Shown piece after piece: positions 1,138 to 36,867 of a DNA stretch of 64,000 nucleotides. The position numbers and the translations under genes were made by a program. The notes under the pieces were generated by a model. It worked only from the letters and a program-made list of their open reading frames with translations. It ran no database searches and was not told the origin of the DNA. The stretch is from contig MU001504.1 of NCBI GenBank assembly GCA_010093485.1, forward strand, positions 187,333 to 251,332, written 5' to 3'. The first letter of the stretch is position 1; each line of letters begins with the position of its first letter. The DNA comes from Karstenula rhodostoma CBS 690.94 (lineage: Eukaryota > Ascomycota > Dothideomycetes > Pleosporales > Didymosphaeriaceae).

Positions 1138-3026
1138 CACATGTATGTTTTTCGTAACCCTTTGAAACTAAAATCCTTATCAAGTTCATCCACGGTAAAT
1201 TGGAACCGCGTAACTCTTTAATACCAAGCTCCCCATCAAGTTGATCCACGGTAGATTAGAGTCCCGTCTCTTTCTCTCTCCTGTGATAACTTTTGCGGGT
1301 ACTCTTAGCACATCGCACCTCCCCATAAAATCAACATCGAATCTTTTTAGTCACCACTCTCCAGCCAGAACATCGCGGTTAGCCTCTTGCTTTTTTTGAA
1401 CACTCAAAGTGCAGACAAGTGTGAGAAACTCCCCATCTCCTTCGCATCACAGTTGGTCTTCCCGCATGTGAGTTGTATAGCCTGTGATCTAGCACATCTC
1501 CACACCCCACCATCAAAAGATTGGGTGCAGATTTGTCGTCCACCGCACCACCTGCCCATCCATCACCTTGCTCCAGGGCGAATTTTAATCCCAGCGCACT
1601 CCCCCTCCATGCGTGCTGTTGCGTTTCTTTTTAGTCGCTACCCCCCAGGCAGCACATAGATTGAGATCCCGTAGACTTTTAGTCACCTAAGAGGGAGACA
1701 CTTGTGAAGAACCAGCCCCTCTCCCCGCGCGGTATCCTCACCATCCCATCTTCTGCAGCCCTCCGCGCTGCGACGTGCAAGACGCTCACACGTCAGCTGC
1801 GTGGTTTTGAGACCGCAAGCGCACCACCCAACGATATCGTTCTTATCCGTTTTCAGTTCCCACGCACCGCACCCCCATCAAGCTTCTCTAGGGTAGGTTT
1901 TGCTCCTAGCATACATTCACCCCTCCCCACGTCACCCACCACATTGGCTTTTAGTCCCCGACAGCCGCATAGCACATTATATAGTTCTCAAAAGGTTTTC
2001 ATACGCACAACAAAGGCGTGTAAGCACCCTCCATGACGAGTTTGGCACCGCGTTTGCGCGTGTGCGATGGGGCAGCGTCGAATCATTTCCAGGTTGGTTT
2101 AGTCCTCCCACCAGACGCAGTCCCACGCGTCCAGGATTCGCCCATCAAATCTACCCATGCGCGCTTTTACTCCGCACAACACCCCCTCCCTCTCCGCATG
2201 AGGACGTTCTTGCCCTTGTTAGGTCCCGATCGTCCCGCCGCAACACACCGTAAGACTTGTTGTTCGGGATTCCAATCCCTGTTTTAAATGCACTTCGTGT
2301 GCGATTGCGAGATGTGGGGTTTAGTCCTGCTGCTGCTCCCACACACCATAAACTTATCTTTGGTCGTTTTGAATCCTCCGCTTCCACTTCCATCAGGCGG
2401 AGATGGGTGTGTTTTTGTCGCCTCGTCATGCGCTCCTCATGTTTTCTCTTTCCCTTAACTTTGCATCTCCACCTCTTCCCCTCCATGTACTTCTTCGACC
2501 ATCGGTTTTAGTCCCCTCCCTTCCCATGAGAATCTCTAGTTGTGCTTGTAGTCCCCACCTCCCTTCCACACTCCTATCGATTTCTCGGCACAGGGTTTTT
2601 AGTCCCCCCCTCCCACCTCTCCCATGTAGCTCTCTAGTAGAGCTTTTAGTCCTTCTACGACCAGCCAGTACACAGCACATGCATCTGTTCCATTGGGGTT
2701 TTAGTCGCCTCCTGCTACTCCCCCACAGCTAGACACCTAGACAGCACATTGCGGTCATCCAACTCTTTTTTGTCACTCGAGGAGCAGAAGAAGTGTGACA
2801 CTCCCCACCTCCCCTCCCCTCCACACTCCCATCAGTTCCCACTGACAAACGTCTTTAGTCCCCTCCCATGAAAATCTTCAGTGGTGCTTTTAGTCCCATA
2901 GCGAGGTAGCCAGCAAGCACACAGCACATACATCTGCTCCATAGGTGTTTTATTCCCCCACAAACAACCAACCAGCCAGCCAGCCAGCCAGCCACCCATC
3001 CCGCACATACATTTGTTCCATGGGCG

Positions 3027-3106
3027 ATTTAGTCCGTCGCCCGTCGCCCGCAGTGCGGGAGAAGTAAAGAAAAACAGAAGAGGACAGTACAGGTCATGTC
3101 ATATAC
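3027..3106 (-). promoter_or_regulatory. Array 1 unit: TATA box with GACTAAAT box
   Basis: Minus-strand TATAT starts at 3105 and GACTAAAT begins at 3034, again 71 nt downstream, the same distance as in the 3502-3630 unit although intervening sequences differ. Confidence 0.45.
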
Positions 3107-3501
3107 ACCTCTCCATCGCCTCCCCTCTATCAACTTCTTGAAACGGCCTTTTTAGTCCCCATGGACTTCTCCAACCGCACTGTCTAGTCCGCACTTCCTC
3201 CCCTCCCATACAGGCCTTCGGTGATGATTTCAGTACCCCGCACACACCCTCTGCTCTATTGGCGTTTTAGTCCCCGCCTCCTTCCCTCGCCACGCTTCCA
3301 TTGCTATCTTGGCATGAGGTTTTTGCTCTTCCCTTCCCTTCCCTTCGATTTTCCGAAATGCCCTTTTTATTCCCTGCCTCCCACCCATAATTCCTTACTC
3401 CTCAAATTTCAACTCCCCTCCTGCCCTCCATGAATTTCTTGGCCGTCGTTTTGAGTCCCCGCCTCCCACTTCCCCTTCCATCAACTCCCATTAACAGATG
3501 T

Positions 3502-3630
3502 TTTTAGTCCCCACAACCAACCTGCACATAGCATTTGTTCTAGTGGTGTTTTAGTCCCCCATCCGTCCCCCACACCTCACTCGTGGTGCAGAAGTGTGAA
3601 GAAACAGTCCGAGGGGGTTATATACCCCTC
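3502..3630 (-). promoter_or_regulatory. Array 1 unit: TATA box plus paired GACTAAAA boxes
   Basis: On the minus strand TATATAA starts at 3627, GACTAAAA follows at 3556-3549 (71 nt) and a second at 3509-3502 (47 nt further). This is the clearest promoter-like unit of array 1. That it drives transcription is inference. Confidence 0.5.
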
Positions 3631-10115: not shown

Positions 10116-12570
10116 GTCTAAAATAGAAATTCAAAGATAACATATAAGAGTATAGGGGGAGGTGGCTAAAGAATGGATGAGATGGGCATAATATGTAGGT
10201 AGGCGGTGTCTAAAACATGCGGGGAATCAAGATGATATGTTGCTGTGGGACTGGCGCTGCGAGATATCACTAACCGTTACTGTGGGGTGGTGATGACGAT
10301 AGGGTATATATATACTTTATGGATCTGTCTGCGCGCTACACTACGGCGTGATGGGGGAGGTGGTAGGTCTAAAATACAAGACAAGAAGAGATATATGGGA
10401 AGAGTGGGAAGGCGGTGTCCAAAAAACATAGAGAAGAAGACGTCATGTGCGTGGGTGGTGTCTGAAGAAATATGCTGGAAAAGACGATGTGTCGCTGTGG
10501 GACTGTCGCGCTGCGGAACATGACCGTCACCATTGTGGGTTAGTGATGCCGGCAGGGAGGGGTATATATACTCGGTGGGGTTGTCTGCTACGTGTTCACT
10601 ACACTCGCTATTAGGGTAGCGGTGGTGTCTAAAACCGAGTTCCAGGATGACCTATGGGAAGGGTGAGGGCGGTGTCTAAAACCAATGCCCAAACACGTAT
10701 GTGGTGGCCTCCTGCCTATGCGCGGGAAGGGTACAGGTTACTATGCTATGGGATGACTGTGGCGCTGCGGAACATCACCAACTATCACCGTTGTGGTATG
10801 GTGATGACAGGGAGAGCTGTGGTATATATACTCCGTGAGCAGATCTACGTCTCTTACTCACTGCAATGTACAGGAGGTGATGGGTCTAAAATGCAAAACC
10901 AAAAGTACGTATGTGGGAGGGTGGGGGAGCGGTGTCTAAAAAATAGAAGAAGTAACGGAGATGTGTCGCTGCGTGCGAAACATCACCAACCGTCATCGCT
11001 GTGGGGTGGTGATGACGGAGGGAGGGGTATATACACTCAGTAGATCTGTTCGATAGGTGCTCACTGCACTACACCGTAGGGGGTGGGAATGGCGTCTAAA
11101 AATGAAACTGCGGCCAGATATGTGGGAAGCGTGGGGAGTGGTGTCTAAAAAGGACAAGACACGTATGTGGTTTCCTGCGCGCGGGAAGGGTATGGTTTAC
11201 TGTGCTGTGCTGGCGCTGTGAAACATCACCAACCATTACCGTTGTGGTATCATGATGACAGGGAGAGGCTGCGGTATATATACTCGGTAGATATCTATTG
11301 GGTATTCACTACACTATACCGTGAGGAAGGGAGATGATGGGTCTAAAAACGGAATACAGAGATTTCATGTGGAGGGTGGGAGTGCGGTGTCTAAAACCGA
11401 TGACAAGACACGTATGTGGTGGTGTCCTGTGCGTGGGGAGGGTATGGGTTACTATGCTATGCTGGCGCTGTGAAACATCACCAACCATCACCATTGCGGG
11501 GTGGTGATGACGGCAGGGAGGGGTACATATATATACTCGTTGGATCTGCCTGCTTTATCCACTACACTACCCTGTACGGGAGGTGATAAGTCTAAAGATT
11601 GAACATACAGAGTTGTATGGGAGTGCGGTGTCTAAAAGATAAACGAAAAGACGAAAATATTACTGCGTCGAAAGACGATAACAAGACACGCATGTGGTGG
11701 CCTCCCGCCTACGCGTAGAAAAACCTTGCTGTGCTGGACGGTGCTTTTCTTTCAGAGGTTGCTGAACTAGGAGGTCGGAGTCAGGCATGCATGTTTGCTG
11801 CACACTTTTTAGACTGGGCAATTCTGAAAGTGGCATGGCTTTGGTCTGGAGAGGTCAAAAGCATGATGGTGATGGAGTTAGGTGCGACATGCATCTGCGT
11901 AAAACCCATACTGGATGAAAGACATGTATGCGATGCGCAAGAAAAAGGTTTTTGTGAAGGTGATATGCTGGTTTAACTGTCTTCACTCTCTTGCGGCTTC
12001 TCCACACCACCATCTCAAGAAAGCCGCAATTCTAAAAGTTGTGGAATGCAGGATGCATGTGCCCGCTGGGGGTCCACACTAAACTCACCAAAGCCACGGG
12101 TTCATGTGCTCAGCCTGTAAAACCGGTCTATCCTATCCGCATGTGGAGAAAGGCCTTCCATCACAGAGGTATGCCACGCACTCATCTCGGCGTCAAAGAA
12201 TATAAACCAAAATCCGACCTACCCCCGTCCTCACTACCAGCCCAAGGCAAGGCCACGACTAAAAACACCACTCACGACTTTTTATGTGCTTGCGTCGAAA
12301 ACACACCACATGATGTGAATATGCGGGTTCTGTGCCGCACTCGCGTTCAAGACTTTTCCTATCAAGCTCGCATGGTAACTCCTGCGTAACCTTGATACTT
12401 TTTCAGCAGATGCCTGTTGTACACCACCGGGGAAGGCACAGTACTAAAAGACGCGCGGAAAGTACGACATGTGGACGGCGTTGGTCAGCATCTAGTCTAA
12501 ACCAGAAAAAGCAGCAGGAATGTCGATTTTCCGGGGTGCCTGGCTGGGAGAGCGGGGTCTAGAAAATCTC
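10116..12570 (+). repeat. Array 2: GTCTAAAA-box array with six phased TATA units
   Basis: Exact GTCTAAAA occurs at 10116, 10208, 10367, 10627, 10674, 10884, 10934, 11094, 11143, 11341, 11389 and 11630. Six units of about 210-260 bp repeat the order: GGCGCTG-like sequence, CATCACCAAC, an inverted GGTGGTGATGA, GGTATATATAC, then two GTCTAAAA boxes. TATA-to-first-box distance is 56-66 nt and box-to-box distance usually 47-50 nt. Between boxes a TATGTGGG-type motif recurs. From about 11,700 to 12,570 the array decays: isolated boxes remain (near 12,032, 12,257, 12,441, 12,494) but TATA phasing is lost. No conserved reading frame runs through the units. Confidence 0.85.
10771..10941 (+). promoter_or_regulatory. 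Array 2, best-preserved unit (third)
   Basis: AACATCACCAAC at 10771, its inverted counterpart GGTGATGA near 10800, TATA at 10823, GTCTAAAA at 10884 (61 nt on) and again at 10934 (50 nt on). Neighbouring units have TATA at 10305, 10563, 11038, 11275 and about 11528. The layout resembles a TATA-driven short gene; transcription is not shown by the sequence. Confidence 0.5.
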
Positions 12571-13026
12571 TTGCATGTTGGTTGGGTATGTGTCTGCCAA
12601 CCTGTTCAATTTGTAAATAGATAGTATAGCGGCTGCGTAAGAAACGGAAGGAGGAGTAATGGCGCTTATAAGCTATTAGGCTTATGTTCGGAGGCTCGGG
12701 GGCTGGGTGGAATTTCAGTGGGTGGTGTTTCTTTCTTAGCACACTGCTCGCTAAAACTGACGAAGAACGTCTGAATGTGGGGGTCTATGATATGCGGGGA
12801 GAAGCAAAAGCCCATTAGATATCGCATTATGTCGACGTCTGCAGCGCCAGGCCGAAATCTATCATGCACGTGCACATGCGTGGGGGACGAGAAACCGCAG
12901 TGTCCAGCAAATGGGTATATTCAACCACTCTCCACAGCAAGCTACATATCGTACTTTTCCCTTCCCTCCCCTTCCCTTCCTCGCACCCTTCGATCCAGAC
13001 GCCCAAACGCCCTCCTTCTATCTCCA
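12571..13026. other. Intergenic, 3' of snu114
   Basis: About 450 bp with no supported gene. Short overlapping frames lack recognisable features. It separates the decayed end of array 2 from the snu114 stop codon. Confidence 0.5.
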
Positions 13027-16000
13027 CTACTGCCCCCCTTCCAGCACCCCACTCTCCCGCAACTGCCTAAACAGCTCCGGCTCCAAAAACTTGCTAATCG
13101 TCACATCCTCCGCAAGGCCCTTGCGTCTCCGCGTCTTCAGCACAAAATCGCGCGCCGTCGCCTGCGCGGATGCCGGCTCCAGCGGCCGCAGCTGCGCGTC
13201 TTTGTCGAGCGGGTCGCCGGGGACGATGGACCAGCGGTCGAAGACGAGCGAAAGGGAGACTTGGCCTTGGGTGTGGATCTAGTTCTCGTTAGTATGTTGG
13301 TTTCAACTGGGTAGAAGGGAAACAGAGGGGAAGACTTACGCGCAGATCCGTCTCGAAGCCGAAGGAATCGATGACGGGGATCAGCCCGCGCACGCTGTAC
13401 AGCGGCGTCCCTGCGATCGGGCCGTCCTGCAGGACGTGGCCTCTCCGCCGCGCGAGGACGGTGTACAGGCTGGACTTGGTGTCCGCGGGGCCGACCATGC
13501 TGCAGCTGTACACGGGCTCCATGAGCCGCGGGCTCGCCATGAGAAAGCTGGAGTAGCACGCGCGGCGGGCGGTCGGGATGATCTGGCCGCCGCCGCGGAA
13601 GATGGCTTCGGGCGCGAGCTCGACGTCGGTGATGCGGAACTTTGTGTTGCGGATGGGCTCTTCGCAGAGGGGGCCTTCGCGGGTGGCCCAGCTGAAGCCC
13701 TGGCGGATGGTGTCGCGGACGGAACGGAGTGTCTTGGTGTCTACTTCGGAGGGGAGGGTGTCGTTTTGGAGGATGTTGGCGCCCATGTCGTCGGGGCCAA
13801 AGGCCCAGATGTTTCGGGAGGCGAGGAGGTCGTAGCCGTAGTGATCTTCGAAGAACTTGCCGACGACTCGGACGGGGTCTTTGATGGAGACTTTACCGGC
13901 TTCGATGTCCTCTGCGATGCCTGGGTCGAGCTGCTCTGCCACCATGGTGATCTTGTTCTTCTTGTTGGGAGTGAGGGCGTAGCATTTTATGGCGGACATC
14001 TCGACGACGGTCTCGCAGAAACGAGTCACCGGGTCGGACACCTTGATCTCCATATCCGCGTACAACCTCCGCAGGTCATGAAGCACGCAGTCCATGTACA
14101 GTTCGCCAGTGCCGAGGATGACGTGTTCGCCGGATTCCTCGACCTTGGTGGTGATCAGTGGGTAAGACTTGTTGATTTTGCGGAGACCGTCAAGCATCTT
14201 GGGGAGTTCGGAGGGGTTGATGGGTTCGACGGCGACTTTGAAGACGGATTCGAAGAAGTGGCGGATCGGGCGGAAGATGTAGGCGTCTTCATCATCTGGC
14301 AGTTTTTGCGAGACCAGGGTGGCAGTCTTGACTATTGAGTTGTCGACGCCACCTAGGAGCACCCAGTTACCCGCGGGCACGCCGCTCGTGGGAACGTTGT
14401 ATCTCGACTCGGCAATCCAAGTGTCAGTGATGGTGGCGACCACCATGTCTTCCTCGTCTTCGATGGTATATGCTTCTCCGAGTACTCGCACGGAGGTGGC
14501 CGTTGTAGCTGTGCCGCTCATAACTCGTCCTAGGGCGTGGAACGACTTTGCATCTGAGGTGTTGTACAGTTTGGAGACGTGAATGACCAGCGGGCCATTC
14601 TGGTTGCACTTCTCCATAGCTTGTGCTGTTTTGGAATCCAAGGGGCCTGTGTAATGTCTCTCGAGCATTCTCTTGGCGCCCTCTGCCGGTGAAGGAACGT
14701 GCTGTGTGATCATGTCTACGAAACCAGTCGAAGGACCGAAATACTGCTGGCATACCAGCCGCATCAGTTCTTTCGCGTCCGTCTTGTACTCGGATGGCTT
14801 CAACCGGATGCCCAGCTGGTCCAGCGTGTCTTTCAGATCGTCCGCGCTCTCGCTAAGGGTATGTGCGTAGAGCTTGTAGATAGGTTCTAATATCCAGTGT
14901 ACGAACGAGCGCTTCGAGTCCTCCTCTTGTGCCTTGCGGCTGAATTTGCGACTTCCTGGGTTGTAGAAAATGTCTCCCCACAGGCGCACTGCAAACTTCT
15001 CCACATCGAGGTTCTTCATCGGCTTGCCAAATCCAGGCGCTTTCGCGGGTCCAGGGTAGAATTCGGCGTACATCTTGGCAAACGACTGCAGTGTGAAGCA
15101 CCATCGCATGCTGGAGCAAGCGAAAGCGACGTTGCCTCTTTCAGGGCTTACACGTCGGCGCTCGCCGCGGCCGGGAATGGTGTTTTCGATGACTGTGTTG
15201 ACCTCCTCGATGACGTGCTTAATCTTGAAGTATGCGTCGCGCGGTGGCAGTTTCAGCTCCAGGATGAGGCGATCCATTTTGTTGACGACCAGTGTCAGGG
15301 GCAGATCTTCCAAAACAGCATGCTTAATGGCCAGCTCGGTCGTCACCTGCACGCCTTCCACCACGTCTACAACCAGCACCACACCATCCACTAGCCGCAT
15401 TGAGGCCGCCACCTCGTCCGCAAAGTTGACGTGTCCCGGGGTGTCTATGATGTTGAACAGATGCGACTTCATCGACGTGTTCTGGAGCACCAGTGTCATA
15501 GGCGCGGCCTTGATGGACAGTCCGCGCTCGCGCTCGACCACGTGCACGTCGGTGTAGCGCAGCTGCTCCTCGCGCTTCTTCCCCCTCTTGGAATCCAGGC
15601 GATCCTGGATGTCGTGTGTCTCCATAACCAGCATGTCCATGAAAGCCGTCTTTCCGTGATGCAGGTGGCCCGCAATGGCGATGTTTCGTATTTGATCCGG
15701 GTAGTTCATCAGGTCCGTCATGAGTTCGCGTGAGTAGTGTACCGGCGGCAGGTCCTCCTCTTGCACTGTGAACTTCTTCTGCACCACAGGCGCAACGATG
15801 GGCTGCGACAGCGCCTGCGTATCCTCCTCTTGGACCAGGACTTCGACATCGGCGCCGTACACGTCGGATGCGGAGGGGTAGTACTGCTTGTCTTCGTGCA
15901 GTATGACGGCGTTTGAGGGCCCCTCGTCCATCTCCATCAGCTGCTGGTCATGCGCCCCCTCTTCCTCGGCCTCGTCGTCGAGCACGTAGGCGTCTGCCGC

Positions 16001-16130
16001 CTCGCCGGTGGACTGCACATCGTCGTCGGACTCGGCTTCGCCGATGAAGTTGCCGAACCTGTAGCAATTAGGATCACGGGATGACGCACAGCACTCGAGC
16101 GCGCACTCACTCGTCGTATAGGTCGTCCAT
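13027..16130 (-). CDS. snu114: U5 snRNP GTPase Snu114 (EF-G-like splicing factor)
   Basis: The GTPase of the U5 snRNP that controls Brr2 and spliceosome activation and disassembly in the nucleus. Exons on minus: 16130-16111, 16058-13340, 13278-13027. Introns of 52 nt (GTGAGT...CTACAG) and 61 nt (GTAAGT, branch CTAAC, CTAG) give 996 residues, normal for the family. The first exon encodes MDDLYDE and joins to FGNFIGEAESDDD, the classic Snu114 N terminus. An acidic region is followed by the G domain: P-loop GHLHHGKT, DTPGHVNFADEVAASMRL and NKMDR. EF-G-like domains II-V follow (IRPIRHFFESVFKVAVEPIN; GTGELYMDCVLHDLR), ending in domain V/C-terminal sequence (DPLDKDAQLRPLEPASAQAT, KTRRRKGLAEDVTISKF). 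It diverges from erg10 across 330 bp. Confidence 0.97.
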
Positions 16131-16460
16131 GGCTGCAGAGGTGAATGGCGCAGTCTGCGCGCGCGAAGCTTGCATGAGCTACCCAAAAGTTCGAGGTCTT
16201 GGCGCGATCGACTCGGCAGCGGTGAAACGTGCCGCCGAGCAGGGATGTACCCGCTAAACTAGCGGTCAACAATGCGAAGGATGCGCCCAATCGGAGAGCC
16301 GAAATCGGGGCGAATGCTCAGGGCAAGGAACCACCCCACTCGGGCTTTTCCTAACGTGGACGCCACGACGACCGACTGCTAGACGATTAAAGTCGCTGCC
16401 CCTCGTGTGCTTTCTGCTCAATTCACCCCTTTGTCTCTCCCGTGTTCTAGATACCCCAAG
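16131..16460. promoter_or_regulatory. Bidirectional promoter, snu114 / erg10
   Basis: 330 bp separate the start codons of two divergent housekeeping genes. The erg10 side ends in a C/T-rich leader (near 16425-16450), common in highly expressed fungal genes. No operator is recognised. Confidence 0.6.
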
Positions 16461-17890
<1,430 letters not shown>

Positions 17891-18059
17891 AGGAGAGGAT
17901 AAAATACCCTAATTTGTGATGGATTGCATGTGCATATGATAGATGACAATGGATGGCTATAGCCTGTCTTGGATGATGACTGACGCCTTTGCTGTGTGTC
18001 GTATGGGGAGGTGCTGTGATACAGGGAATTAGTCATAGTGTTACCCTGGGGTTGTGGAG

Positions 18060-20000
18060 GTGGTCTGTATCATCACCACCCCACGCTGCAGATGCCAGCA
18101 CCCTGCTCTAGAACGGTATAAATACCGCCCCAATCCCCCTTCAACTTCTTCACATAACTGTTCGGGATCTTTGCGGGCTTGACTAAAACCATTTCAAGAG
18201 CATGCCATGTCTGGCTTAGGAGACTAAAAACGCTTTTATCAGGCGACATGTGTGCTTCGGCGCTGGCAAACCAAAAACGATAATTCTTCCGCCATATGCG
18301 TGGTTTATAAATATAGCGAGGCTCTGGTGATGTTGAAGGCGTCCCACAGAATTGATGTGTGCTGTCAGGCTGTCGTGATAATAATCATCATCAATCGCTG
18401 TGGAGACGTTAATCTAGGGAGGGGTATATATACCGCCTCAATCTCCGTTCAACCTCCTTACACTACTCCTGAGGATCTGAACGATCTTGCCTAAAAGCAT
18501 TGGAGAGATGGAGCATGTCCTGGTGTGGGAGATTAAATTTGGAACAACGCGGTCTTATGTCTGGTCTGCGGCTGGGCTGGGTGACTAAAACTAAAACATC
18601 TTGCACCTCTGGTCATGTTATGTACTGTATACTATACATTTAACAGAAAACGCTGCGTGCTCTTAGGTTTTCGTGATAATAATCATCATCAATCACTGTA
18701 GAGACGTTAACCTAGGGAGGGGTGGGGTGTATATATACCGCCTTGATCCCCCTTTAACTTCCTCACAACTCCTAGGGATCTTGACTAAAAATAACGAGCT
18801 ACAAGCCCATGTCCGGGGGTAGGAGACTAAAAATAAGTGACGCGACATTCTGATGTTTGGGCTGGGGATGGGCTGGGCGACCAAAAAATGACATCGAGAT
18901 TTCGGATGTCTGGTTGGGAATGTGGATGGGAGACGAAAAGCAGAAGTACATGGTGACCTGTGCGGTCTACAAGCAGATGTGGAAGACATTGATGGCGCCA
19001 GCGCCGTGTGTTTGGAGATTGGCGTGATGATGATGATGATCAGTACTACTCTGCTGTGGATATTGTTAAGCTGCTCGGGAAATGTATAAAAATACCCTTG
19101 ATCTCGACCCTGACTTGCACGATACTCTCAAGGACCCTTCTGGCATTGACTAAAAGTGTTAGCCCGGCTGTCTCATGGCCCGCACTGGAGGACTAAAACT
19201 CTAGGAGACCATTACCATGTGTGGTTGGGGCCGGGAGACTAAAAACTGAAGACTTTCAGTCATATGTGTGGTCCGAAACCAGACTGTCGAGGACTACATG
19301 GCGCCGGTTCTGGGTGTCTGTGGTTGATTTTGTTTGATGTCAGGTGTTGTAGTGATGGAGGAAATCACCACAGGCGTCGGCAATGTGTGGTGGGCTGTAT
19401 AGATACACCCTTGATTCCACTTCAGATTCCGCACACAATTCCTAGAGAATCGCTCCCACAATCATGACTAAAATCCGTTGAACATGGACAATATGTCCTG
19501 CGTTGGGAGACTAAAAACAGATCCATCCAGTGGCATATGTGGTCGATAAGCAACGACGGATATCTCGAATGGCGCCAGCTCGGTATCTGAAGCTCGTAGC
19601 GTTTATTCTGGGTCTGTTGTGATGATGATCGTCATTGCAGACAATAGTTCCCCGCCGAGAAAGTGTATTTATGTCTCTGTAATTATCCTTCTGTTCTGCA
19701 CACTATTCTCAAGTCTTTGGGCCTTGACTAAAATGGCTATTGCGCCGCTTTCATGTCCCAGGCTGGGAAACCAAAGAGTTCATGATGAACTTCCTATGTG
19801 GTCTAAAATACTTGTGGAACAATATTTATGCATCCGGCTATGGATATGAGATCACTGCTTTTTACGTTGCGTAGAGGGGTGAGATGATTATCACTGCACT
19901 CGCGGACGTCAGCGGTCTGGGCTAGATGTATAGATACCACCTCGAGTCCGTTCCTATCCAGTACGCTGCTCTCGGTTAGCCTTGACAAAAACATATGCTC
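18060..20000 (+). repeat. Array 3: GACTAAAA-box array with seven TATA units
   Basis: Exact GACTAAAA at 18181, 18222, 18583, 18783, 18825, 19148, 19191, 19237, 19466, 19509 and 19726, plus variants (18489, 18880, 18933, 19802, 19983). Units of about 260-355 bp start with an ATCATCATC or TGATGATGAT tract, then TATA boxes (18117, 18425, 18730, 19085, 19398, 19666 and about 19929), then a CTTGACTAAAA-type box 53-68 nt later, then GGAGACTAAAA boxes 41-46 nt on. ATGTCTGG or ATGTGTGG recurs between boxes. The stretch from TATA to first box is itself conserved (TACCGCC, TCAACTTC, GGGATCTTGAC). No continuous reading frame is conserved. Confidence 0.85.
18069..18229 (+). promoter_or_regulatory. Array 3, first unit
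   Basis: ATCATCACCACCCC near 18069, GGTATAAATACC with TATA at 18117, GACTAAAA at 18181 (64 nt on) and 18222 (41 nt on), with CCATGTCTGG between the boxes. It combines the upstream element of array 2 with the box dialect of array 3. Confidence 0.5.
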
Positions 20001-20427
20001 AACGGTTTGATGTCCTGGGCTGAGAGGCGATAAAGAGAAAATCTGAGTTCTATGTGTGGCGTAAAGGCAGACTTGGATGGCTTTCATGGGGCTAGGAGAG
20101 GGTTAAGGTCAACTTCTTTTTTGCGGTCCTCACATTACGTTTCGAGTCGTCTATCCGTCAGCACCTAATTTCAACTATTGCATCCCGGTCAGCTCGGTCG
20201 ACGCGATGGGAGCAGTGTGTTGATAGCAATGACAAGCTAAAGTGAATAGACAATAACTGCGTTACATTTCGCAATCCTGTCAAGCGTTGGAAACAAATCG
20301 TTCGCTAGCTGACTGGCACATCTCCCAGGACCCGGCGCCGCGTTGCCGCTGCAATGTCTACAGTGTATTGAACATGCGTTCTGTATTGCAGCCTCAACAC
20401 ACAGGCTGATGTATAGCCAGGCTATAT
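20001..20427. other. Intergenic, end of array 3
   Basis: About 430 bp with no supported gene. A faint box-like GACAAAAA at about 19983 is the last trace of the array. Sequence up to 20427 shows nothing recognisable. Confidence 0.45.
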
Positions 20428-21643
20428 TCACGTTGGACCGATGTTCCGCTCTGAATATTGGAAGAATATGGTAGTTCTGAGAGTAAGCATGCCGTTCAAC
20501 TTGTAACACTTGGATTGTAAAATTACAATGATTACATTAATTCGGCCACATGAGAAGAGACGCAATATTTCACATGACAATAACCTTGACCAGCCCTGAG
20601 TGTCAAGCTCTCTTGGGGAGTGTACTTCACTGGAAGGCAATTCGGAAACTACAGGCCGGCCGTAGATCTCCTGAGTAAAACTATGGTGGGTCATGCTAGA
20701 AGTTTTGTCTTCAACTCCAGAGGTCGCCTCTGGTGCTGCTGCCTGAGGTTTGCTTGGCCTATCCTTTCTTCGACGCCGATGCAAAAAGACCGTTAGGACC
20801 AGCGCACCGATGCCGAGTACGCCAAGCGATGCACCCAGTCCGATTCCAACTTTCACTCCCGTTGACAATCCGTTGTCGGTCGAGCTATTCGAAGGTGCCG
20901 TGCCTGTCGGAGATGGACGTTCATCCGAAGGATTTGAGGTTGAGAGCCGGCCGGGACGAGAAATCGGATGAGGCAGTTGTTGAACTGGTAGAAGGATCTG
21001 CTATAGCTGTCGAGGTCGCGCGTGCAACGTTGAATCATACTACAGCGATTGCACCAACACTGGAAGACGCAGACAACGTCGTTGTCGCCATCGACTAGTC
21101 TGTGGACTCCCCTGCACCAGTGGAGGCGTATGTCAAAACCATGCCCTTGGATACACTGGAGAGACAGTCGCCGTTTACGGAGCGGCTTGTTGCATGCAGG
21201 TTCGAGTAACCTCTGTGAATCGGAGTCAGCCTGGTAGAGGATTCAGAGAGTTCAATAGCTTACGAGGGACAACACATGATCTGTGTCGTAGTACTGTCTT
21301 TAATGAAGGTTGCGACAGTCGTCCACAGATATGGACATGTCAGAGGCTGTATGCTTAAGGCAGTATGTTCACTGCCTCCAACGCCTAGGCGCGCTTGTTC
21401 CCACCACGTAGTCACAGCAGAAGGTACACACTTGACTGCTGGGTCGATATCAAGCCCGTAGCCCGGATCGAACGCAACCAGGCTAGATCCATTGAGGCGA
21501 AAAGCAGACTCGCACCCTGATGACGGTGTGAAGACGGCCGTGAGAGGGATCCAGGAAGTTACATCGTCGCCATTTGTTTCTGCCGTGACAGACATGATGG
21601 GGAAGTTTGAAGCAAAGCGTTGTGGAGATAATGCAACGTGGGA
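20428..21643 (-). pseudogene. Decayed single-pass surface protein (Ser/Thr-rich, one TM)
   Basis: Coding relics read in order on minus. An ectodomain from about 21643 (VTSWIPLTAVFTPSSGCES; VAFDPGYGLDIDPAVKCVPS; ALSIQPLTCPYLWTTVATF; CCPS) is followed by an apparent 60-odd nt intron and GYSNL, SVNGDCLSSVSKGMVLTYAS. The frame then meets TAG at 21095-21097, where tryptophan would fit (STD*SMATTTLS), and TGA at 21035-21037. A Ser/Thr stalk follows, then a frameshift near 20950-20920 into the TM segment (VKVGIGLGASLGVLGIGALV) and a basic cytoplasmic tail (FLHRRRRKDRPSK). The layout (ectodomain, stalk, TM, short tail) is common in uncharacterised fungal surface proteins. Two nonsense codons plus a frameshift make a functional product unlikely. 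The true 5' exon and stop are not resolved. Confidence 0.7.
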
Positions 21644-21925
21644 CTGTACAAGTGAGTTGATTGATGGTAAGACACCTCATCAAAGAAGAACGGGGAGTAA
21701 CGCAACGAGGATACGGGGGACCAAGGCTTTGCCTCTCCGCCCCTATGCACAAAGCCTGGCATGCGCACCCGCGTGGCACAGTGATCCATGTACCAGAAAT
21801 GAGTGGCTGCAAGCCGCGTGCAGGGATATCACATTTAAGCGCTGACCATGCTAATCACAACACTTGGCACCGTTATAAGACAGGTTCCCTTCTCAACATA
21901 ATCCACTTTGTCCTACATCCACAAC

Positions 21926-23828
<1,903 letters not shown>

Positions 23829-24292
23829 ATTAGCTGTCATCTTTCGTTCTTCATCAACTTTGGCAAGAATGGAACAAACACTGATAAGCACATGCCATGC
23901 GGCGCAAGATCGAGAAAGATGCATGGCTCTCTATTTTATGTCATGTTATGCTTACTATAGCGAACAAAAATGTATCAGAAGAAAACACATCGACAAGACA
24001 CTTGATCGAGCTGCTACCATTTAGTTACCAGATACTGCCAATCCACGTGTTATCAATACCGGCACCGACCGAATTCTCCGAAAAGTGCATGAGCTGCGTC
24101 AATGAGTTTACACTGCTTATATATGGCTGAGCGGACGGGAAGCCTAGTTCTCTCTTGCCCATTCGCCACCAAGACCGCTAAAAGGACTGTGTTTAGTAGT
24201 CTGTCTACAGCTTAATACACCCCGTAGATCGTTGATTCACTACACAGTATTCTCAGACATTACTGTTATTCCCGGACCCTGGCTACTGCACG
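23829..24292. other. Intergenic, no gene seen
   Basis: About 460 bp after the mannosidase. A 77-codon frame (23897-24130) has no recognisable feature. GC content is lower than in the gene. Confidence 0.4.
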
Positions 24293-24520
24293 CTTAACGC
24301 TATGTCACGCACATAGGCGCTTAGATCAAGCCGCTATTGGTGTCTGCCTGTTCGAACAGGGGAGCGGCCTATTACGGAACTGTTGGGTCTAGGACTCAGG
24401 ATAGCGAGTGAGCGCGAGGCAGGCATAATGAGGGCGGGCTGCGCGACCATTAGATCGGCGGCTTGCTAAACTTGGGCTAACGCCACATCACCAAGCGCTT
24501 AGGTTAAGCCACTATTGGTT
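24293..24520. repeat. Pair of diverged direct repeats (about 47 bp)
   Basis: Copy A (about 24293-24341) and copy B (about 24475-24520) share CTTAG, AAGCC and CTATTGGT in register. Differences include several C/T and G/A transitions, as expected if RIP or deamination acted on a duplication. The MITE at 24524 sits just after copy B. A partial third resemblance (GTTAAGCCACTA) lies near 25252. Confidence 0.6.
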
Positions 24521-24523
24521 CTA

Positions 24524-24688
24524 CAGGGTGTTTAGCCCCGGCTCGCACGGGGCCGTCGTCCTTAGAGTACCGTATATTTTGAGCAAGTAAGCAGCTTTCG
24601 GTGGGTAGACCAATTGGACAGTAGCTACGGTACACCTTCACTGGCACCCTAGGAGCGGCCCCGTGCGACCTGAGGTGGAAACACCCTG
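24524..24688. mobile_element. MITE with ~32 bp terminal inverted repeats, TA target duplication
   Basis: A 165 bp element begins CAGGGTGTTT (24524) and ends AAACACCCTG (24688), flanked on both sides by TA (24522-24523 and 24689-24690). The inverted repeats extend about 32 bp inward with a few mismatches, both reaching CGCACGGGGCCG. Size, lack of coding capacity and TA duplication fit a non-autonomous Tc1/mariner-type element. No transposase is present in the window. Confidence 0.85.
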
Positions 24689-24690
24689 TA

Positions 24691-25371
24691 TCCAGGCTGT
24701 AGATACAGGCCAGTATTCTGAGTGAACGACACTTAGAAATACGCTTACTGAACAAGTCTTAGTGTCTTTCAGCGGCCACGGCGGTGCATGTGGCTTAGAA
24801 AGTGGCGATCTTATGGGTCATTGCTACCATGTACCTTTCTACCTACCATCTATACATTCTGAGACATCTACAAGGTCAAGGCGGGTGTGAGTTGGCCTTC
24901 CCCCATGCTGGCTTCCTCGGAGGTGTTCGTCGACTTCTGACGAGGCTGAAGTGGCAATTTTTAACCCGTGCTTCTCAAGCAACATGTTCTCGAAGCTTCG
25001 CTCTGGCAAGTAACCTAGGGTACATAGCACTCGTTCCTGGAAATCTGCCTTCGGTTAATTAGCTGAGAAATAAGGCGCTCTTGGCATTTTCACACGCTGT
25101 GATTCGTTTATTGAGCCATCAATTCTATCTTCTAATTGGTTGATTATACGAGGGCGGATTCGAGAATCGCGTGTGATCAAACGTGGAGTGATACTGTTGA
25201 TGCGGTTCTTCAGCCTTCCGGTGAGACGATAACAGCACCATGCAGCTCGATGTTAAGCCACTAATGCGTGGGCAGGCTAAAAGCCTATATTGTCCAGCTG
25301 AAGGCACCAGTGTTCACCGAAAATCCTCGCCCGCTCTCCAAAATCGCTTCCTGTTCTCTTGCTAATCTTCT
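24691..25371. other. Intergenic before the ankyrin gene
   Basis: About 680 bp without a supported gene. Frames such as 24802-25062 overlap antisense frames and show no motif. The last 100 bp contain C/T-rich leader-like sequence before the ATG at 25372. Confidence 0.45.
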
Positions 25372-27863
25372 ATGGATCCGCTCTCAGTAGCAGCAAGTAT
25401 TATAACCCTTATCGCGGCTGCTGGGTCTATTGTGCAGCATTTGGAATATGTGAAATCTCGCATGACTCCTTACGCCGAGCTCCTTGCTATCATGAACACT
25501 GTAGGCAGCACTAGATTGCTTGGTTTACTCCACCTAACAGCTATAGGTAACAGATCTACAAGCAACTTTGATCGTTGTCCGATATGAATATGAATCGCTC
25601 AGAAACAGCAGAATACCGGCTGCGAGGCTGGTCTACCAGACCCTACCTGATACAATTAAGAGGCTCCAACAATGCTTGGATCAATTAGTCGATTTCGCAC
25701 ATGCGAACCTCGTGAGGAATGGAAAAGGTCTATCCCGCCTTGGACTGAGCAAAGCAAAGAGAGAACAGTTGGTCCACATTCGAGACGATATTTCAGACGC
25801 GCACCGCAACTTGCAATTGCTTCTTCACTCTGCGAATCTGTCAGTCTAATCTTCTCCGCCCCTGGTATTTACGCTCAGGATCAGTTCTAATAATTTTGAA
25901 GGCGTCGGACCCAGGAGCTGATGTCGAAGATAGAAGAAGCTGCTATTGTTCAAAACGAAAACCATAATCAGACTTCTACGGTCCTGGATGGAATAATTAC
26001 TCAATTATCGGCAGTCCACGATCTTCAAGGCGAAAATTTAAAAGGCAGTCAGCATACGCAGAGTGAAATCAGATCTGTTCTGGAACAGACAACATATGAC
26101 GGCGGCGATTCAACATCGACCCAGCTTCGGATAACAACGAGTATGCCTCTCAAAGCATGTGACTGGACTTGTAATTGCCAATGTCATGTTCGAAACCGAT
26201 CTCAGACTCCGCAATGGCTCTCGGCAGTTGTCGGAACGCTTTTTTACTGCTCTACAAATACACCGTCGCTTGACTTCCTACCTTGTAATACTACAGCCTG
26301 CTTCAGGTCTCAATCAACGTCCTCTTATCGGTTCACATATTATTTTCCGAGTTGGATAATGCGTGCAGCTCTTGTCTATACGACTTGGAACAACGTACAA
26401 GGAGAGAACTCGTCTTGGAGTGTTAAAATGCCGAAGGAAATACCGCTTTATTCTCCCTGTTGGCATTACATCCAAGGAGGATTTGTAGAGAAGATTCGAG
26501 AGCTTCTGCAGTTGCGCCAAATGTCACCGTACGACATTGGGCCGGACGGAGTTTCTGTTCTGCATGTAAGTTGTGAGGAGAGACTGGGATCACCCATTGA
26601 AAGTAATGAGGATGTCGTACTAACACTTTTATAGTGGGCAGAGTCATTCTGGCAACTCGATATATGCTCTCTGCTAATGGCGACGGGAGCAGACTGGCAT
26701 TTCAAGGATAGAGCGGGAAGGTAAGTAGCTGCTATTCCCAGCCAGGGTACGGTAAAAACTTAAAAATTATTGGCAGGTCACCATCAGACGGCGCATGGAG
26801 AAAGGTCCTGTTGAATGAAAATTCCGATGCCAGTGTGACTAGGTTGCGAGCACTCGTTGGGTCAGAGGACTCGTATGATCTCCAGCTCGGGCCTCTGCAT
26901 CGCATCATCCTGGGATTATCTAGTGCCGATTTTCAGATGCAATTGGACCTGGAGCCTTCACGAATAAACGATCTGGACTGGTTGGGATTGACCCCTCTGA
27001 TGTGGGCAGCGCTTAGAGGCAATCATACTTGTCTTAATATGCTGCTCTCACACGGCGCTCGAATCCACTTAACGGACTCAGAAGGGCGTACCGCTCTCCA
27101 TCATGCCGCAAGAGTTGGCTTTTTACAATGCGTCGAGGCTCTTCTGAATGCCGGGGTCGACCCCAACATTGCCGATAAAAATGGCCTCATTCCTCTCCAC
27201 GATGTCGCCTACTTCATCCCAAGCCCAGAGGTTGCAACCATAGTCACATCACTACACGGGTATGGTGCAGACCTTGAGGCGAGGAACAAAGATGGATGGA
27301 CCCCTCTGTTTATAGCCACTGACTTAGGATCACTCGAAGCTGTCGAAGCACTCGTCGAATGTGGTGCCGATGTAAATGCTCTGGATTTCAGCGATACCCC
27401 ACCCATCGGTCGTGCGATTTTCCGCGGGAACGATCAAATCGTTCAACTACTCTGTCAGCGTGGAATATTGCCATCCTGGAATTCAACTGATCACGAGTTC
27501 GTGAATGTTCTCGCCGAAGCAGCGGTGTGGGGAACGGTGAAGGTTATGGACATTCTATCGGACTCTGCTATTCCTCCGATAGAATGTAACATTACCAAAC
27601 TTAAGCATTGGTTCAATACATATCGCCAAAACAGTTATTCTACATACCGCTCACCTGAAGAGGAGCTCGCCGCCTTTCACCGTCTGCTCGATAAGAAGGC
27701 AATTCCACTGAGCCGTGCCGAGGCCGAGGAGTCGTTCGTCGCAACGAAAGACGCATTGAACAAAGAAAACGATGATAATGACGATAGCGATGATGTCGAT
27801 GTTTTCGAGGATGCTATGGAAGGTGTTTCCTTTTTTGTTGAGTCTGGTCTTCTCGCTGCTTGA
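25372..27863 (+). CDS. NLR-like ankyrin-repeat protein with fungal STAND-type N-terminal domain
   Basis: Probably a cytosolic recognition/incompatibility-type protein. Exons 25372-25500, 25547-25839, 25902-26565, 26635-26720 and 26777-27863 (introns 46-69 nt) keep frame and give 752 residues. The N terminus MDPLSVAASIITLIAAAGSI is typical of the Fungal_N/Helo-like domains that begin fungal NLR proteins. It continues through a predicted helical segment (ESLRNSRIPAARLVYQTLPD; AKREQLVHIRDDISDAHRNL). Residues about 470-620 carry ankyrin repeats: GLTPLMWAALRGNHTCLNML, GRTALHHAARVGFLQCVEAL, NGLIPLHDVAYF, DGWTPLFIATDLGSLEAVEA, DTPPIGRAIFRGNDQIVQLL. There is no NACHT or NB-ARC P-loop between them, so it lacks the NTPase of a full NLR. 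An acidic tail (NDDSDDVDVFEDAME) ends the protein. The first intron (46 nt) has donor GTAGGC. Confidence 0.82.
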
Positions 27864-28049
27864 CCCGTTGTAGTTGCCTCATAAACGATAGCATACGGAG
27901 GGAGGCGTTTCCCATTGAATGAGATAAGCTTGAAATCTCTACTTTGTGAGCGCGTCAGAAGACGCACCGAGGCCGATATATGGTCTCCAACAGAGGAAAG
28001 CGTCCTTGAGGTCATTCGTGGTATAGGTCTGTGAAGGTAGCGCTATCAC

Positions 28050-31000
28050 GTGCCACGTGATGGTGGTGGTGGTAGTGGTATCAACCACCGGAGGATGGCA
28101 GCGCCCATGTTCAGGCATGGCGCAGCCTTTTTGCGGCGTGGCCGGCGGCAAGCTCTTGATCACGGGATCTTGTCTTTCGTCGTGGTGCTAACATACCTCA
28201 CTTCTGACGACTGGCTACCGATTCCTATTGCCGGTTTCCGTTTACGGTCCCTCAGCAGATGGCGTCCTATGGTCGTATGTGAAAGATGGAGAGCAATCTA
28301 TGGTATATATCCCCTGCTTTCATGCCCGCCCAGTATGGCATAATGCCCGTGATATCTATCTTCCGCGCATTGGTGCTATGCCTGGGGACGTACAGATACC
28401 ACCTCTATCCAGCTCTTGAATCTTATAATTCTCGGGTCTTTGCACTTTTGACTAAACCATATGCAATGTAGTGGGCATGTCTCGGGTTAGGAGAGGGGCC
28501 TAAAGAATGAACAAACCAAACTTCATGCGTGGTCTAAAAGCGATTTTGAAAAATTGAATGGCTTTGGCGCTGGTTCTGAGTGTGTGAACTCCGCCTGCTG
28601 TGATGGAGGGCTGGATTATGATCATCACCATCGTTACTGCGAATATTAGCAATATGTCTGAGGATGTATAAATACCACCTAGTTTTCATTCTGACCTTTC
28701 ACGCTCTTTGCGGGGTTTCTTGGCTTTGACTAAGAACTTGGTCCTCACTATTCATGTCTGTGGTCGGGACAAAACCGAAAACTTCGAGTTTAAGAGACAT
28801 GTCTAGCGGGTCAGAGACTAGCGAATGTAAAATGCATGTTGGCCTCGTCTGCTTGGGTACAGTTGGTGTATCTAGACTGGATACAAGGCGGAGGATGGAG
28901 ATAGTAACGTGTATCATCGTCACCGCGCCCTGCGAGTGCTCGAAGCATGTGGGGGGAATGTATAAATACGGTCTCATTCTTCTCCTAAATCGGCACATAA
29001 AACTCCCAAGGATTTCCTTGGTCTTGAACAAAACTGGTCTAAAATCAGAGATGATGGTGTCCTATGTCTGGCGGATTAGAAGGAAGATGACTCCTCGATG
29101 GTGAGAGTTGTCATTACCAGTACGCGGCGGATGTGGTATTCTGCCTGGGGATATACCAATGCGACCTCGTTTGCCTTTTACTTGTACACACCACTCCACC
29201 CATTCTGATTAAACCTCTCTACATAGCAACCTGATTCCATGGGCTCCGAGCTCGGGGCGTTGGGGACTAAAGCCAATCTCGATTCTGATCATTTCTGGCA
29301 GACTAAAACACAATGTCTCCAGCATATGACTAGTTGGCTCTCCGTATAGAGGCTCAACACCATCAACGACCTGGAGTGGGATGAGCATGGTCATCATTAT
29401 TACCACCGCGTAATGCAGAGATTGGCAATCGGTTAACGGAGTGCATAAATAATACCTCATCGATTCCATACATAGACGGCACGATGCTTTTGGGTCTCCT
29501 GGGCCTTGACTGAAAGTTGAGCGACATAAAGCTTATGTTCTGCGCTAGGTAATGGAAGATGCCGGCTTGAATCATGGCCGGTTTCTCTGTGATCTTGACC
29601 GAAAATCGTTTGATCGCACTTCCATGTCTCTGTGGGTGCTGGGCTACTAGAAATGGGAGTTCGAGCGCCTGTAGTCTTTGAGCTAAAGTATAGATAGAAG
29701 CGACGCATGGCTCCTGGACTGCTTGTCTGTCATTGCTTTTCTTTCATATGTAGAGCGAAAGGGTGGACATGGTGGCAGGCATCGCCATGTGGTCCTAGCT
29801 ATTGCCACTACGTGCTGCAGAAGACTGTGCTGCAGAAGACTGTGCTTCACGAACTGGGCTATAAATACTCCCTCAATCGTAGTGTTGATCCTGCACACGA
29901 GGCTAGGTATCTCCATAACCCTGACTAAAACGTACAAGGCGGTGCTCGATGTCGTGTGGCCTGCGTTTTGGGCACTAAAAGCCGCATCCAATAACCCCAT
30001 GTCTGGAGACGAGAGATTGCGGCGATGGACAATCGTATTGCGGGTCAATGCTGCTTGGTTTTTTTATGTGTATCATCATGACTCCATGATGTAGAAATGG
30101 AATCTCGCGGCGGAGAAGGTGCAAGTACCACCTCAATCCTACTTCTGGGCCCTAAATCACTCCAAATATCTGTAGGACTTTGACCAAAAGCTCAACCCAC
30201 GATTGATCATGTAGTGTCTTTCGGGTTTTGGGGACTCGAAGGTCATTCCGAACGACTATTTATGGTTGCCTCTAGGTCCAGGACATATAGGAAAGCTATA
30301 AATACTTTCTCTCCTCTACTTGGATCTGGGTACACTTATTTGATTTCGAGAGCTTGACTAAAAGTTCAACTGCCTCCCACATATGTTCTGGGCCGTCTTC
30401 GGACTGGAAGCTGCAAGTAGCCATCTTCATGTCTGGCGCGCCGACCTCTGATCATTATCCACACAATCCCCCAGGAATGCTATTATTGCGTTCTGTAGCC
30501 GTTGAGGGCATACATATATTTCTGACCGCAATATCCCACTCTGCACACAACGCCAGACAACACTAACGATGAACGAACATAGACCGCCAGGGAAATTGTG
30601 CCCTGGACGCTGGAAGACTAAAATTCAACCACGATCAGTTCTATGTGTGGAGACCCAGACCTCTTACTTTCCTAACATACAGCTTTGTTGGTCTACATTC
30701 CTGGCACCAATAATCCTTGGTCGCAATCTTGATAGTTCCCAGCTCTGAAGATCTCTCAGTCTTGACTACAAATAGGTCCCCTTGCAAGGCATGTTTGCGA
30801 TGCTGGGGGACTAAAAGCAAAACAGAAGCGATCGATGGGTTTTGTGCTGGGTATCTCAGAGCGATTGCTCTAGAATCATCATCATCGTCACCCCCAGTCA
30901 TCAGTGTACGTCGGAGCTGCCATGATCATCTCGTGTGGTGAGATTAAGGTAAATGTGCACGCATACCATCTCATGATGTAACTTGATACATAATTTCAGG

Positions 31001-31160
31001 GGTTAGGGGAGGTATAAGCACACCCTTCGTTTCGCTTCTGCCTTACACACACTCCAGGTCTTTGCAACCTTGACTGAGAGCTAGCAGCTCGCCACACATG
31101 TCCTGGCTCATCGCGAGACTAAATGCGTCGACGATAAATCTTATGTCTGGAGAGCAAAAG
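28050..31160 (+). repeat. Array 4: diverged GACTAAAA-box array
   Basis: The longest and most degenerate array. Exact GACTAAAA remains at 29301, 29923, 30356, 30616 and 30809; one- or two-base variants sit at about 28449, 28728, 29022, 29268, 29510, 30183 and 31073. TATAAATA-type boxes at 28667, about 28960, about 29446, 29860 and 30297 lie 59-63 nt upstream of a TTGACTAAAA-type box. ATCATCACC or ATCATCATC tracts precede units near 28621, 28914, 29391, 30072 and 30878. GGCGCTGG and ATGTCTGG motifs also recur. No reading frame is conserved between units. Array 4 sits between the ankyrin gene and a decayed gene. Confidence 0.75.
29860..29930 (+). promoter_or_regulatory. Array 4 unit: TATAAATA and CTGACTAAAA
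   Basis: TATAAATACTCCCTC begins at 29860 and GACTAAAA at 29923, 63 nt on, matching the spacing of arrays 2 and 3. A CACTAAAA variant follows about 50 nt later. Confidence 0.45.
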
Positions 31161-31827
31161 GGTTAAAGAAAACATATATTGCCCTCATGCTCTCTGAGAA
31201 CCGCGCCCGCAACGATAAATGACTTCTGCTTGAGTTGTCTAAAATCGCAAGTGCTCCGAATGCATTTAAATTTGGAGCCTTGGGGACCATCGATATCTCT
31301 CCCTGTTTCTCTAGCTGTGCACAAAATTTGTCAATTCTGACACAAGTTTGACGAAAACTTATGCTCCCATGTTTAACATCCTAATTAGGGATATCGAAAT
31401 CATGAATAAAGTGAAAGTTTTGGCAAATCCATTTGAGGGGGGCCCCGAGGGCTGTGTATACTCAGCACAAGCATGCTACACCCGCGCAAGATCATATCGA
31501 TATCACTATCGCGGAATAAGCTCAGTTTCAAGCTCTTCAGTATCTCAGTTAGGCAACACTCTTGAAACTTCTGTATGGGGCAAAATTGAGACATCTGAAA
31601 CCACTGCGCCACATTACATAGCCCCGCCCGTCATGCCGCCATACATGGGCAACAGCGTGCCTGACAAGTAAAAAAAATCTACTCTAACCCTTCGGTAGTA
31701 TTCAGAAAACGACCATCTCAGATTCAAAAAGTTCACAATCTTCATTGGAAACCCATCTTTCGATGCTTCGTTGACGCTTTCTTGCGAACGGACGTTTGAG
31801 AACCAAAAAATATCTAGCAACAGCCCC

Positions 31828-35021: not shown

Positions 35022-35250
35022 TCTACAGGTCGGGAAAGTAAATCTGCTAGGGGGGTTCAAAAAGCTTTCGAAGCCTGGTTCCAAAAACTCTTTGACTCAT
35101 GATGTATGCTTGGTTTTCCTAAAGCAGGGGCAATGAAGGCTGATTCGGAAACACGCATACCTCATCACATCACAAGTGCTGCCAGGCCATAGTATCAGGT
35201 GCCCAGATGATTGTTAGGTCGTATTTGCTCTATCGTTAGATTTGCGCATT

Positions 35251-36714: not shown

Positions 36715-36867
36715 TCAGTACTGGCATGACAGTGTACCGTAGAAGGACTCGAACACATATACCGCCTGTGAGTGCTGTGAGTGTGACATACCACGAAGAT
36801 ACTCGTCTCGCATCTTGGCAATAAGCTGCTGCATGTGCAACTCGGCAGCCCTTTTCTTGTCAGCGGC

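Follow-up and report, generated by a model that had tools for sequence, protein, structure and literature searches.

A genome-wide family of TATA-led arrays with a fixed 18- or 19-nt variable segment in Karstenula rhodostoma, candidate genes for short guide RNAs

Results and discussion

Four arrays in a 64-kb window

The window, i.e. the whole stretch of 64,000 nt that was analysed (contig C13, positions 187333–251332), belongs to the genome of Karstenula rhodostoma CBS 690.94 (Pleosporales; 44.3 Mb in 29 contigs), which was used for the genome-wide searches. Proteins encoded in the window are fungal (SAS4, U5 EFTUD2, GH47, HET, Rad17 and PSMD12/CSN4), and the only shared protein-coding flank seen was a thiolase-like pair found at locus L009 and in the window. 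Four arrays carry the box GACTAAAA or variants thereof (Table 1). With 31 copies in the window, GACTAAAA exceeds both the expectation of 1.6 and the maximum of six obtained in dinucleotide shuffles. A first-pass annotation of this DNA had counted 28 box copies between positions 10116 and 31160 and 13 more in array 1; the excess is real, but the plus strand of this interval holds 32 copies (17 GACTAAAA and 15 GTCTAAAA), and the 13 copies of GACTAAAA in array 1 were recovered on the minus strand.

The arrays have one module in common, in which GACTAAAA or a variant of it is separated from an ATG by 18 or 19 unconstrained bases. At a threshold of 8 bits or more, the window contains about 105 modules in arrays 1–4, and at 9 bits, 34 of the 40 minus-strand modules lie inside array 1 and 67 of the 72 plus-strand modules inside arrays 2–4. 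The ATG signal at 18 or 19 nt, the same grammar in array 1 and the genome-wide extent of the family go beyond the first-pass annotation.

Table 1. Positions of the arrays and of representative modules and TATA boxes in the window
Feature	Position	Strand	Details
Array 1	1139..3624	-	36 modules of at least 8 bits; TATA 3619-3624; second TATA-like element near 1980; first box 3549-3556
Array 2	10116..12880	+	26 modules in tandem units (~210-260 bp), usually two per unit; TATA in every unit; box variant GTCTAAAA
Array 3	18117..20090	+	22 modules; several units with their own TATA
Array 4	28450..31267	+	21 modules; boxes more degenerate
TATA box, array 2 unit	10563..10568	+	first box of unit 10627-10634
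Example module, array 3	18181..18209	+	GACTAAAA 18181-18188; 18-nt segment 18189-18206; ATG 18207-18209
Second module of the same array 3 unit	18222..18250	+	18-nt variable segment
TATA box, array 3 unit	18730..18735	+	first box of unit 18783-18790
Example module, array 3	19148..19177	+	19-nt variable segment
TATA box, array 4 unit	30297..30302	+	first box of unit 30356-30363

A fixed distance between box and ATG

Twenty stretches of the genome, mostly at clusters of matches to GACTAAAA-N16-21-ATGT, were sampled together with three added loci, and arrays were present in 22 of these 23; the remaining one (L028), which had been chosen by another pattern, was rejected as an array with 2 modules only. 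The fitted box reads GG-G-A/T-C-T-A-A-A-A, and the second signal is ATG with T or G at the next position and G at the one thereafter. Among 537 strong boxes (at least 9 bits; 27 regions), for which spacings of 0–55 were examined and the ATG element was counted at 5 bits or more, 302 had an ATG 18 or 19 nt downstream (131 at 18, 171 at 19). Spacings of 17, 20 and 21 accounted for 18, 23 and 9 boxes, each of the remaining spacings up to 54 for at most 10, and spacing 55, where the next module starts, for 12. Since most loci had been chosen with the range of 16–21, the unbiased evidence consists of the peak at 18/19 inside this range and of the window arrays, whose selection was independent of the box-to-ATG spacing. 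In the latter, 29 of 46 exact boxes were followed by an ATG at 18 or 19 nt (14 and 15, respectively), compared with 3 at 17, 4 at 20 and 0–3 at each other offset.

The same model, fitted on the sense strand of the 27 regions with the antisense count as control, identified at 8 bits 828 modules on the strand of the array, compared with 47 antisense ones. Genome-wide, GACTAAAA-N16-21-ATGT occurred 106 times, compared with 19 times for the reversed pattern, and extrapolation from the 76 exact-pattern matches in the analysed loci suggests a total near 1000 modules; the arrays number some two dozen or more. Six other stretches of the same genome (L029, L030 and L034–L037) contained 0–3 modules per strand in 4–10 kb. 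The linkers from ATG to the next box range from −1 to 40 nt (pairs were counted up to 40), which suggests that box, 18/19 nt and ATG form the functional unit and that linker length is free. The pattern is solid as a pattern. An earlier proposal of selection on layout was right, but the arrangement concerned is that of box, 18/19 nt and ATG rather than the order of elements described at the time.

Promoter-like elements upstream of the modules

TATAWA motifs peak 50–69 nt before boxes, an interval that holds 51 of the 111 found at distances of 10–199 nt. As promoters were called by a box 45–80 bp away, this histogram is the independent evidence for the spacing. Among 130 called promoters, the first box mostly follows TATA by 53–66 bp, and the window arrays span 53–78 bp, in agreement with the spacing noted previously. 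One module was assigned to 19 promoters, two to 42, three to 33 and four or more to 36, so that 75 of the 130 serve two or three modules. As a side observation, the pattern TATAWA-N42-66-GACTAAAA matched 420 times compared with 11 for reversed controls, a count that is inflated by AT-rich decayed repeats and was not used as evidence.

TATA is followed by a pyrimidine-rich stretch and, about 35 bp downstream of TATA, by a C/A-rich region. Of 128 promoters, 37% had CACAC or CACAT at +22 to +51 of TATA, compared with 2–5% upstream, and TTCACACT-N8-36-GACTAAAA was found 12 times genome-wide, compared with once for the reversed control. The exact word TTCACAC, present at +22 to +51 in 11% of the 128 promoters only, indicates that any start signal is loose. 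Upstream of TATA, CATCAC was enriched fourfold and TCATCA about threefold, with TCATCA/TGATGA in the −80 to −41 bin of 18% of the promoters (reversed control 0–3% across all bins). GGCGCTG, previously listed as an element of the family, did not hold up, as even the 40-bp bin upstream of TATA that was richest in it or its variants had them in only 5% of 128 promoters; the word is restricted to a small number of units. The suggestion of multi-copy, short TATA-driven non-coding RNA genes fits the TATA boxes, the pyrimidine-rich stretch, the CACAC/CACAT words, the strand consistency and the lack of a coding frame, from which transcription appears probable.

The segment between box and ATG diverges more than its neighbours

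The comparisons below of first-module pairs and of 719 modules were ungapped and anchored; a gapped promoter alignment was set aside, its null being as high as the signal. In 140 same-array pairs picked by similarity before the box, identity fell from 0.83 at the last box base to 0.30 at the next one. Likewise, 96 same-array pairs picked by linker similarity showed identities of 0.21–0.36 over the segment and 0.94–1.0 over ATG, with a step from 0.36 at the last segment base to 1.0 at the A of ATG. Pairs of first modules taken without such selection had segment-end identities of 0.267 and 0.262 within arrays (n = 388) and 0.265 and 0.264 between arrays (n = 7740). For the same kind of pairs, identity within and between arrays was 0.449 and 0.284 for linkers, 0.358 and 0.276 for the pre-box region, and 0.308 and 0.335 within vs 0.261 and 0.293 between for the two TATA flanks. 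Linker, pre-box region and TATA flanks thus retain some trace of common descent, unlike the segment. Over 719 modules, the mean excess per region above letter shuffles amounted to 0.060 for linkers and 0.040 for the pre-box region, each positive in 26 of 26 regions; for the segment it was 0.007 and 0.017, positive in 20 and 21 of 26 regions.

The earlier remark that sequence between the elements is unconserved was correct, and the segment goes beyond it in diverging more between paralogues than its immediate neighbours. This is illustrated by locus L031, in which four tandem units have largely kept their linkers and differ in their segments. Segments are copied with their unit and diverge afterwards, as shown by one exact duplicate (L013), one close pair (L020) and five related segments in array 1. 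Segment composition is nearly flat. From these comparisons we infer diversifying selection or targeted change of the segments, with linker constraint inside each array as the alternative.

Locus L010 consists of repeats of a compact two-segment gene with the order TATA - leader - GACTAAAA - N - ATGTCTAAAA - N - ATGCTTCGTGG. Here a ATGTCTAAAA-like element combines the ATG of the first module with the box of the second, the final element contains ATG, and the segments are unrelated. Nine units match this pattern, with identities of 0.86 and 0.82 for the boxes and 0.63 for the 3' element. The segments are at the shuffled level (0.45 vs 0.44), and so, nearly, are the promoter stretches (0.51 vs 0.49; leader 0.52 vs 0.47), which means that at this locus nothing but the boxes and the 3' element has been kept longer than the segment.

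Search for targets, pairing and structure

When 771 segments were compared with 253 kb of DNA that excluded arrays and each segment's own locus, 11-base matches numbered 455 vs 376 and 472 vs 395 on the two strands (Markov control). Matches of 13 bases or more showed no clear excess in this set except for sense lengths of 14 (10 vs 4.3) and 15 (3 vs 0.7). One perfect target per segment, evenly spread over the genome, would give about four full matches in 253 kb; the 15-base words found, three sense and one antisense, are too few for even one 18-base match. With so few long matches, three options are left: targets outside this genome, partial pairing, or no pairing at all.

Further comparisons addressed smaller sets. 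No second genomic place was found at 2–3 mismatches for three of three segments, the third pattern consisting of a 17-nt segment plus ATG with lower power. For 413 segments against 304 kb, 67 had a second place at 3 mismatches compared with 47 in one letter shuffle, and 5 compared with 3 at 2 mismatches, the one exact match being a duplicate in its own array. The 771 segments showed no clear excess against one retrotransposon-like locus, the mean against one 5.8S copy was not in excess, and a RIP-tolerant comparison of 413 segments with 27 kb of AT-rich DNA gave no excess either. A DNA search with whole arrays, to which 18-base matches are invisible, returned only the arrays themselves. Pattern searches yielded no match in GTDB genomes and three in IMG/VR, at loci with 0–4 modules per strand and no array (L039: 4 in 4 kb).

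Pairing of a segment with its own unit was rejected, being the same as with other units, as was segment-segment pairing inside arrays, of which none was found. Hairpin linkers that join ATG and box, hinted at by some linkers of array 3, were rejected as well, with an overall fold z of −0.14 (SE 0.06). Terminal linker stems (2.91 vs 2.99 shuffled) gave no common fold, and among 440 offsets searched for shared structure none was outstanding (best z 2.9).

Comparison with known RNA systems

The plan of the arrays resembles that of box C/D snoRNAs (box - guide - box/box - guide - box). C/D snoRNA paralogues have boxes in common and differ in their guides, their genes are often clustered, and in archaeal C/D sRNAs the guide length is set by the RNP. 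The signals themselves differ, as RUGAUGA and CUGA stand against GACUAAAA and AUG (fitted G-A/T-C-T-A-A-A-A and ATG-T/G-G), and the roughly 1000 extrapolated 18–19-nt segments contrast with the far fewer rRNA sites known for C/D guides. A cmscan search at Rfam gathering scores of the window and 25 loci (L009–L033) returned one tRNA, one 5.8S and no snoRNA family.

CRISPR arrays share with the present ones repeated short signals that alternate with unique segments of fixed length on one strand behind a promoter. Segments of 18/19 nt on one strand (828 vs 47 modules), few of them duplicated, correspond to such spacers, and at L010 the signals are fused into a 10-base ATGTCTAAAA repeat. Near-identical repeats of about 20–50 nt are absent, as only box and ATG recur across arrays, and the arrays further differ in belonging to a eukaryote, in having diverged repeats and internal promoters, and in the inheritance of segments by duplication. 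The type VI-A CRISPR repeat, too, has GGGGACUAAAAC at its end, most likely by chance. The arrays do not qualify as Fanzor/TnpB omega RNAs; a genome search for PF07282 (TnpB/Fanzor/Cas12f zinc ribbon, E 0.001) gave no match, with a control that was positive in 6 of 14 genomes.

The type 1 piRNA (21U-RNA) loci of C. elegans likewise consist of many mini-genes in clusters, each with a constant motif at a set distance from a unique sequence, there 21 nt long; each gives rise to an Argonaute-bound small RNA that begins with U. They differ in the motif, and the segments described here are bounded on both sides and lack a U bias at the first base (T 0.14–0.16). Titles and abstract openings of the literature searched contained nothing on such arrays.

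Possible function and alternative explanations

We favour, with about even confidence, the explanation that the arrays are a family of Pol II genes for short multi-guide RNAs with guides of 18–19 nt. Each gene would have a TATA box, in many cases preceded by TCATCA/CATCAC words that resemble an activator site. Transcription would probably start some 35 bp downstream of TATA, frequently at CACAC, and a short leader would be followed by one to several modules of GACUAAAA - N18/19 - AUG. A protein may hold the RNA at box and AUG and leave the 18–19-nt segment to pair with a target, with C/D snoRNPs and crRNPs, each with its own signals, as analogues. The simplest explanation for a constant 18–19 nt between two short RNA signals would be a complex that clamps a guide-target duplex at its two ends. 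After duplication, boxes and linkers would be kept while the segment diverges, so that the family might explore new specificities. The sequence shows the module with its spacing, promoter context, strand and repetition across the genome, as well as the extra divergence of the segment; we infer transcription and its start, the RNP, the pairing with a target and why the segments diversify.

The main rival, which we regard as rather unlikely, also assumes Pol II non-coding RNAs, with the 18–19 nt as a neutral spacer, free to drift, between box and AUG, which a protein or complex would contact a set distance apart; linkers would then look conserved through constraint within arrays or because the paralogues are recent. 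Segments that resemble random sequence, with nearly flat composition and without coding signature, the lack of a near-perfect genomic match in the tests run, and sharp borders, which constrained boxes alone would also produce, are all compatible with it. However, linkers reach only 0.284 between arrays (segments 0.265) yet 0.449 within them, and the segments keep almost nothing. As linkers are weakly conserved between arrays and kept within, a neutral segment should not decay faster than the linker. Moreover, a fixed gap between two short single-stranded RNA signals would have no obvious use without a duplex.

It is improbable, in our view, that the arrays act at the DNA level, with box and ATG as half-sites about 26 bp apart that serve nuclear organisation, replication or the regulation of neighbouring genes. 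Bipartite sites for DNA-binding proteins typically combine a fixed spacing with free intervening sequence, but such sites need neither the near-exclusive use of one strand per array nor a position downstream of a suitably placed TATA, and linkers of many lengths between modules remove regular helical phasing. The binding-site array considered in the first-pass annotation is similarly weakened by the orientation fixed relative to TATA.

Short peptides or micro-exons from each ATG can be dismissed almost entirely and short ORFs were rejected on frame tests, because, despite an ATG in every module and 32 codons in its frame compared with 28 and 27 in the other two, the alternation of 18 and 19 breaks any frame, the distance from ATG to the next TAA is split over three frames (54, 62 and 72 of 188), A at −3 is unfavoured (0.18) and the profiles contain no position-specific intron signal. 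Satellite DNA or a decayed transposon family, also raised before, is just as implausible: local tandem duplication in arrays 1–3 and L031 would suit it, but blastn revealed no similarity of array modules between regions beyond short dispersed repeats, the 13 cross-locus matches (E 1e-8; window and 23 loci) being short and dispersed-repeat-like, 11 without a module and two with at most one module call per side, and grammar and strand are kept while the sequence is not, with segments at chance identity.

If the segments are guides, the arrays would represent a large family of fungal guide-RNA genes that use a box code of their own. Their plan would compare with that of C/D snoRNAs or CRISPR arrays, but the tests run here place them in neither group; this would open the question of the pairing partners and of what drives excess divergence over exactly 18–19 nucleotides. 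Even if they are only spacers, the arrays would constitute a family of putative Pol II genes, built to a precise ruler, that is undescribed as far as the titles and abstract openings searched reveal.

Piwi-domain proteins as candidate partners

A more far-reaching version of the guide-RNA explanation, which we consider unlikely, would view the arrays as a repertoire of about 1000 hypervariable guides under diversifying selection against foreign or fast-changing nucleic acids (e.g. mycoviruses) and acting in an undescribed RNP. Piwi-domain matches in the genome number eight; the Piwi gene on C10 lies near one pattern match and was rejected as array-associated, the stretch containing one module per strand and no array. 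Among the eight are two divergent single-exon Argonaute-like proteins of 1071 and 1093 aa encoded on contig C20, and naming one of them as a partner of the arrays is a guess. In C20-type proteins, the usual first catalytic aspartate, in the Piwi motif GADVTHP, appears to be replaced (GAHISHP, GAHISQP or GAHIAHP). For the second C20 protein, at least five relatives at E 1e-20 were found among the matches listed, including proteins of Paraphaeosphaeria minitans and Paraconiothyrium brasiliense.

Divergent Piwi-domain proteins
Two divergent Piwi-domain proteins, each encoded by a single exon on contig C20 of the K. rhodostoma genome, share 27% identity (1071 vs 1093 aa), and the first catalytic Asp of the Piwi motif appears to be replaced. 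Besides the longer protein itself, the matches listed for it at E 1e-20 comprised one protein from Paraphaeosphaeria minitans, one from Paraconiothyrium brasiliense and three more.

Array segments and genomic setting
Five kindred segments, the variable stretches between box and ATG, were found in array 1 on the minus strand (boxes starting at window 3556, 3272, 3034, 2955 and 2706). They differ largely by A/G changes, which perhaps hint at the type of mutation diversifying the segments, five being too few for a test. Around arrays 3 and 4, GC is reduced to 0.46–0.52 (window 20300–38000), and this region holds GH47, ankyrin and HET genes.

Features of the window and of further stretches of the genome (L024, L035, L036).
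Feature	Location	Strand	Remark
Piwi-domain protein, 1071 aa	L035:1359-4574	-	contig C20
Piwi-domain protein, 1093 aa	L036:1279-4560	-	contig C20
Open frame, 1281 aa	window 40711-44556	-	no Pfam match
5.8S rRNA copy	L024:5651-5796	-	

The 1281-aa frame contains tandem repeats of 24- and 48-bp period (window 43019–43960) and perhaps encodes a repetitive secreted or wall protein. L024, which also bears an array, gave no SSU or LSU matches within the same 9.9 kb as its 5.8S copy.

The very AT-rich blocks at window 59000–64000 (GC 0.20–0.27) and in L030, another stretch of the genome (GC 0.13), look like RIP-mutated repeats. Genome-wide, 105 reverse-transcriptase matches were obtained, the majority with several stops, often seven TAA.
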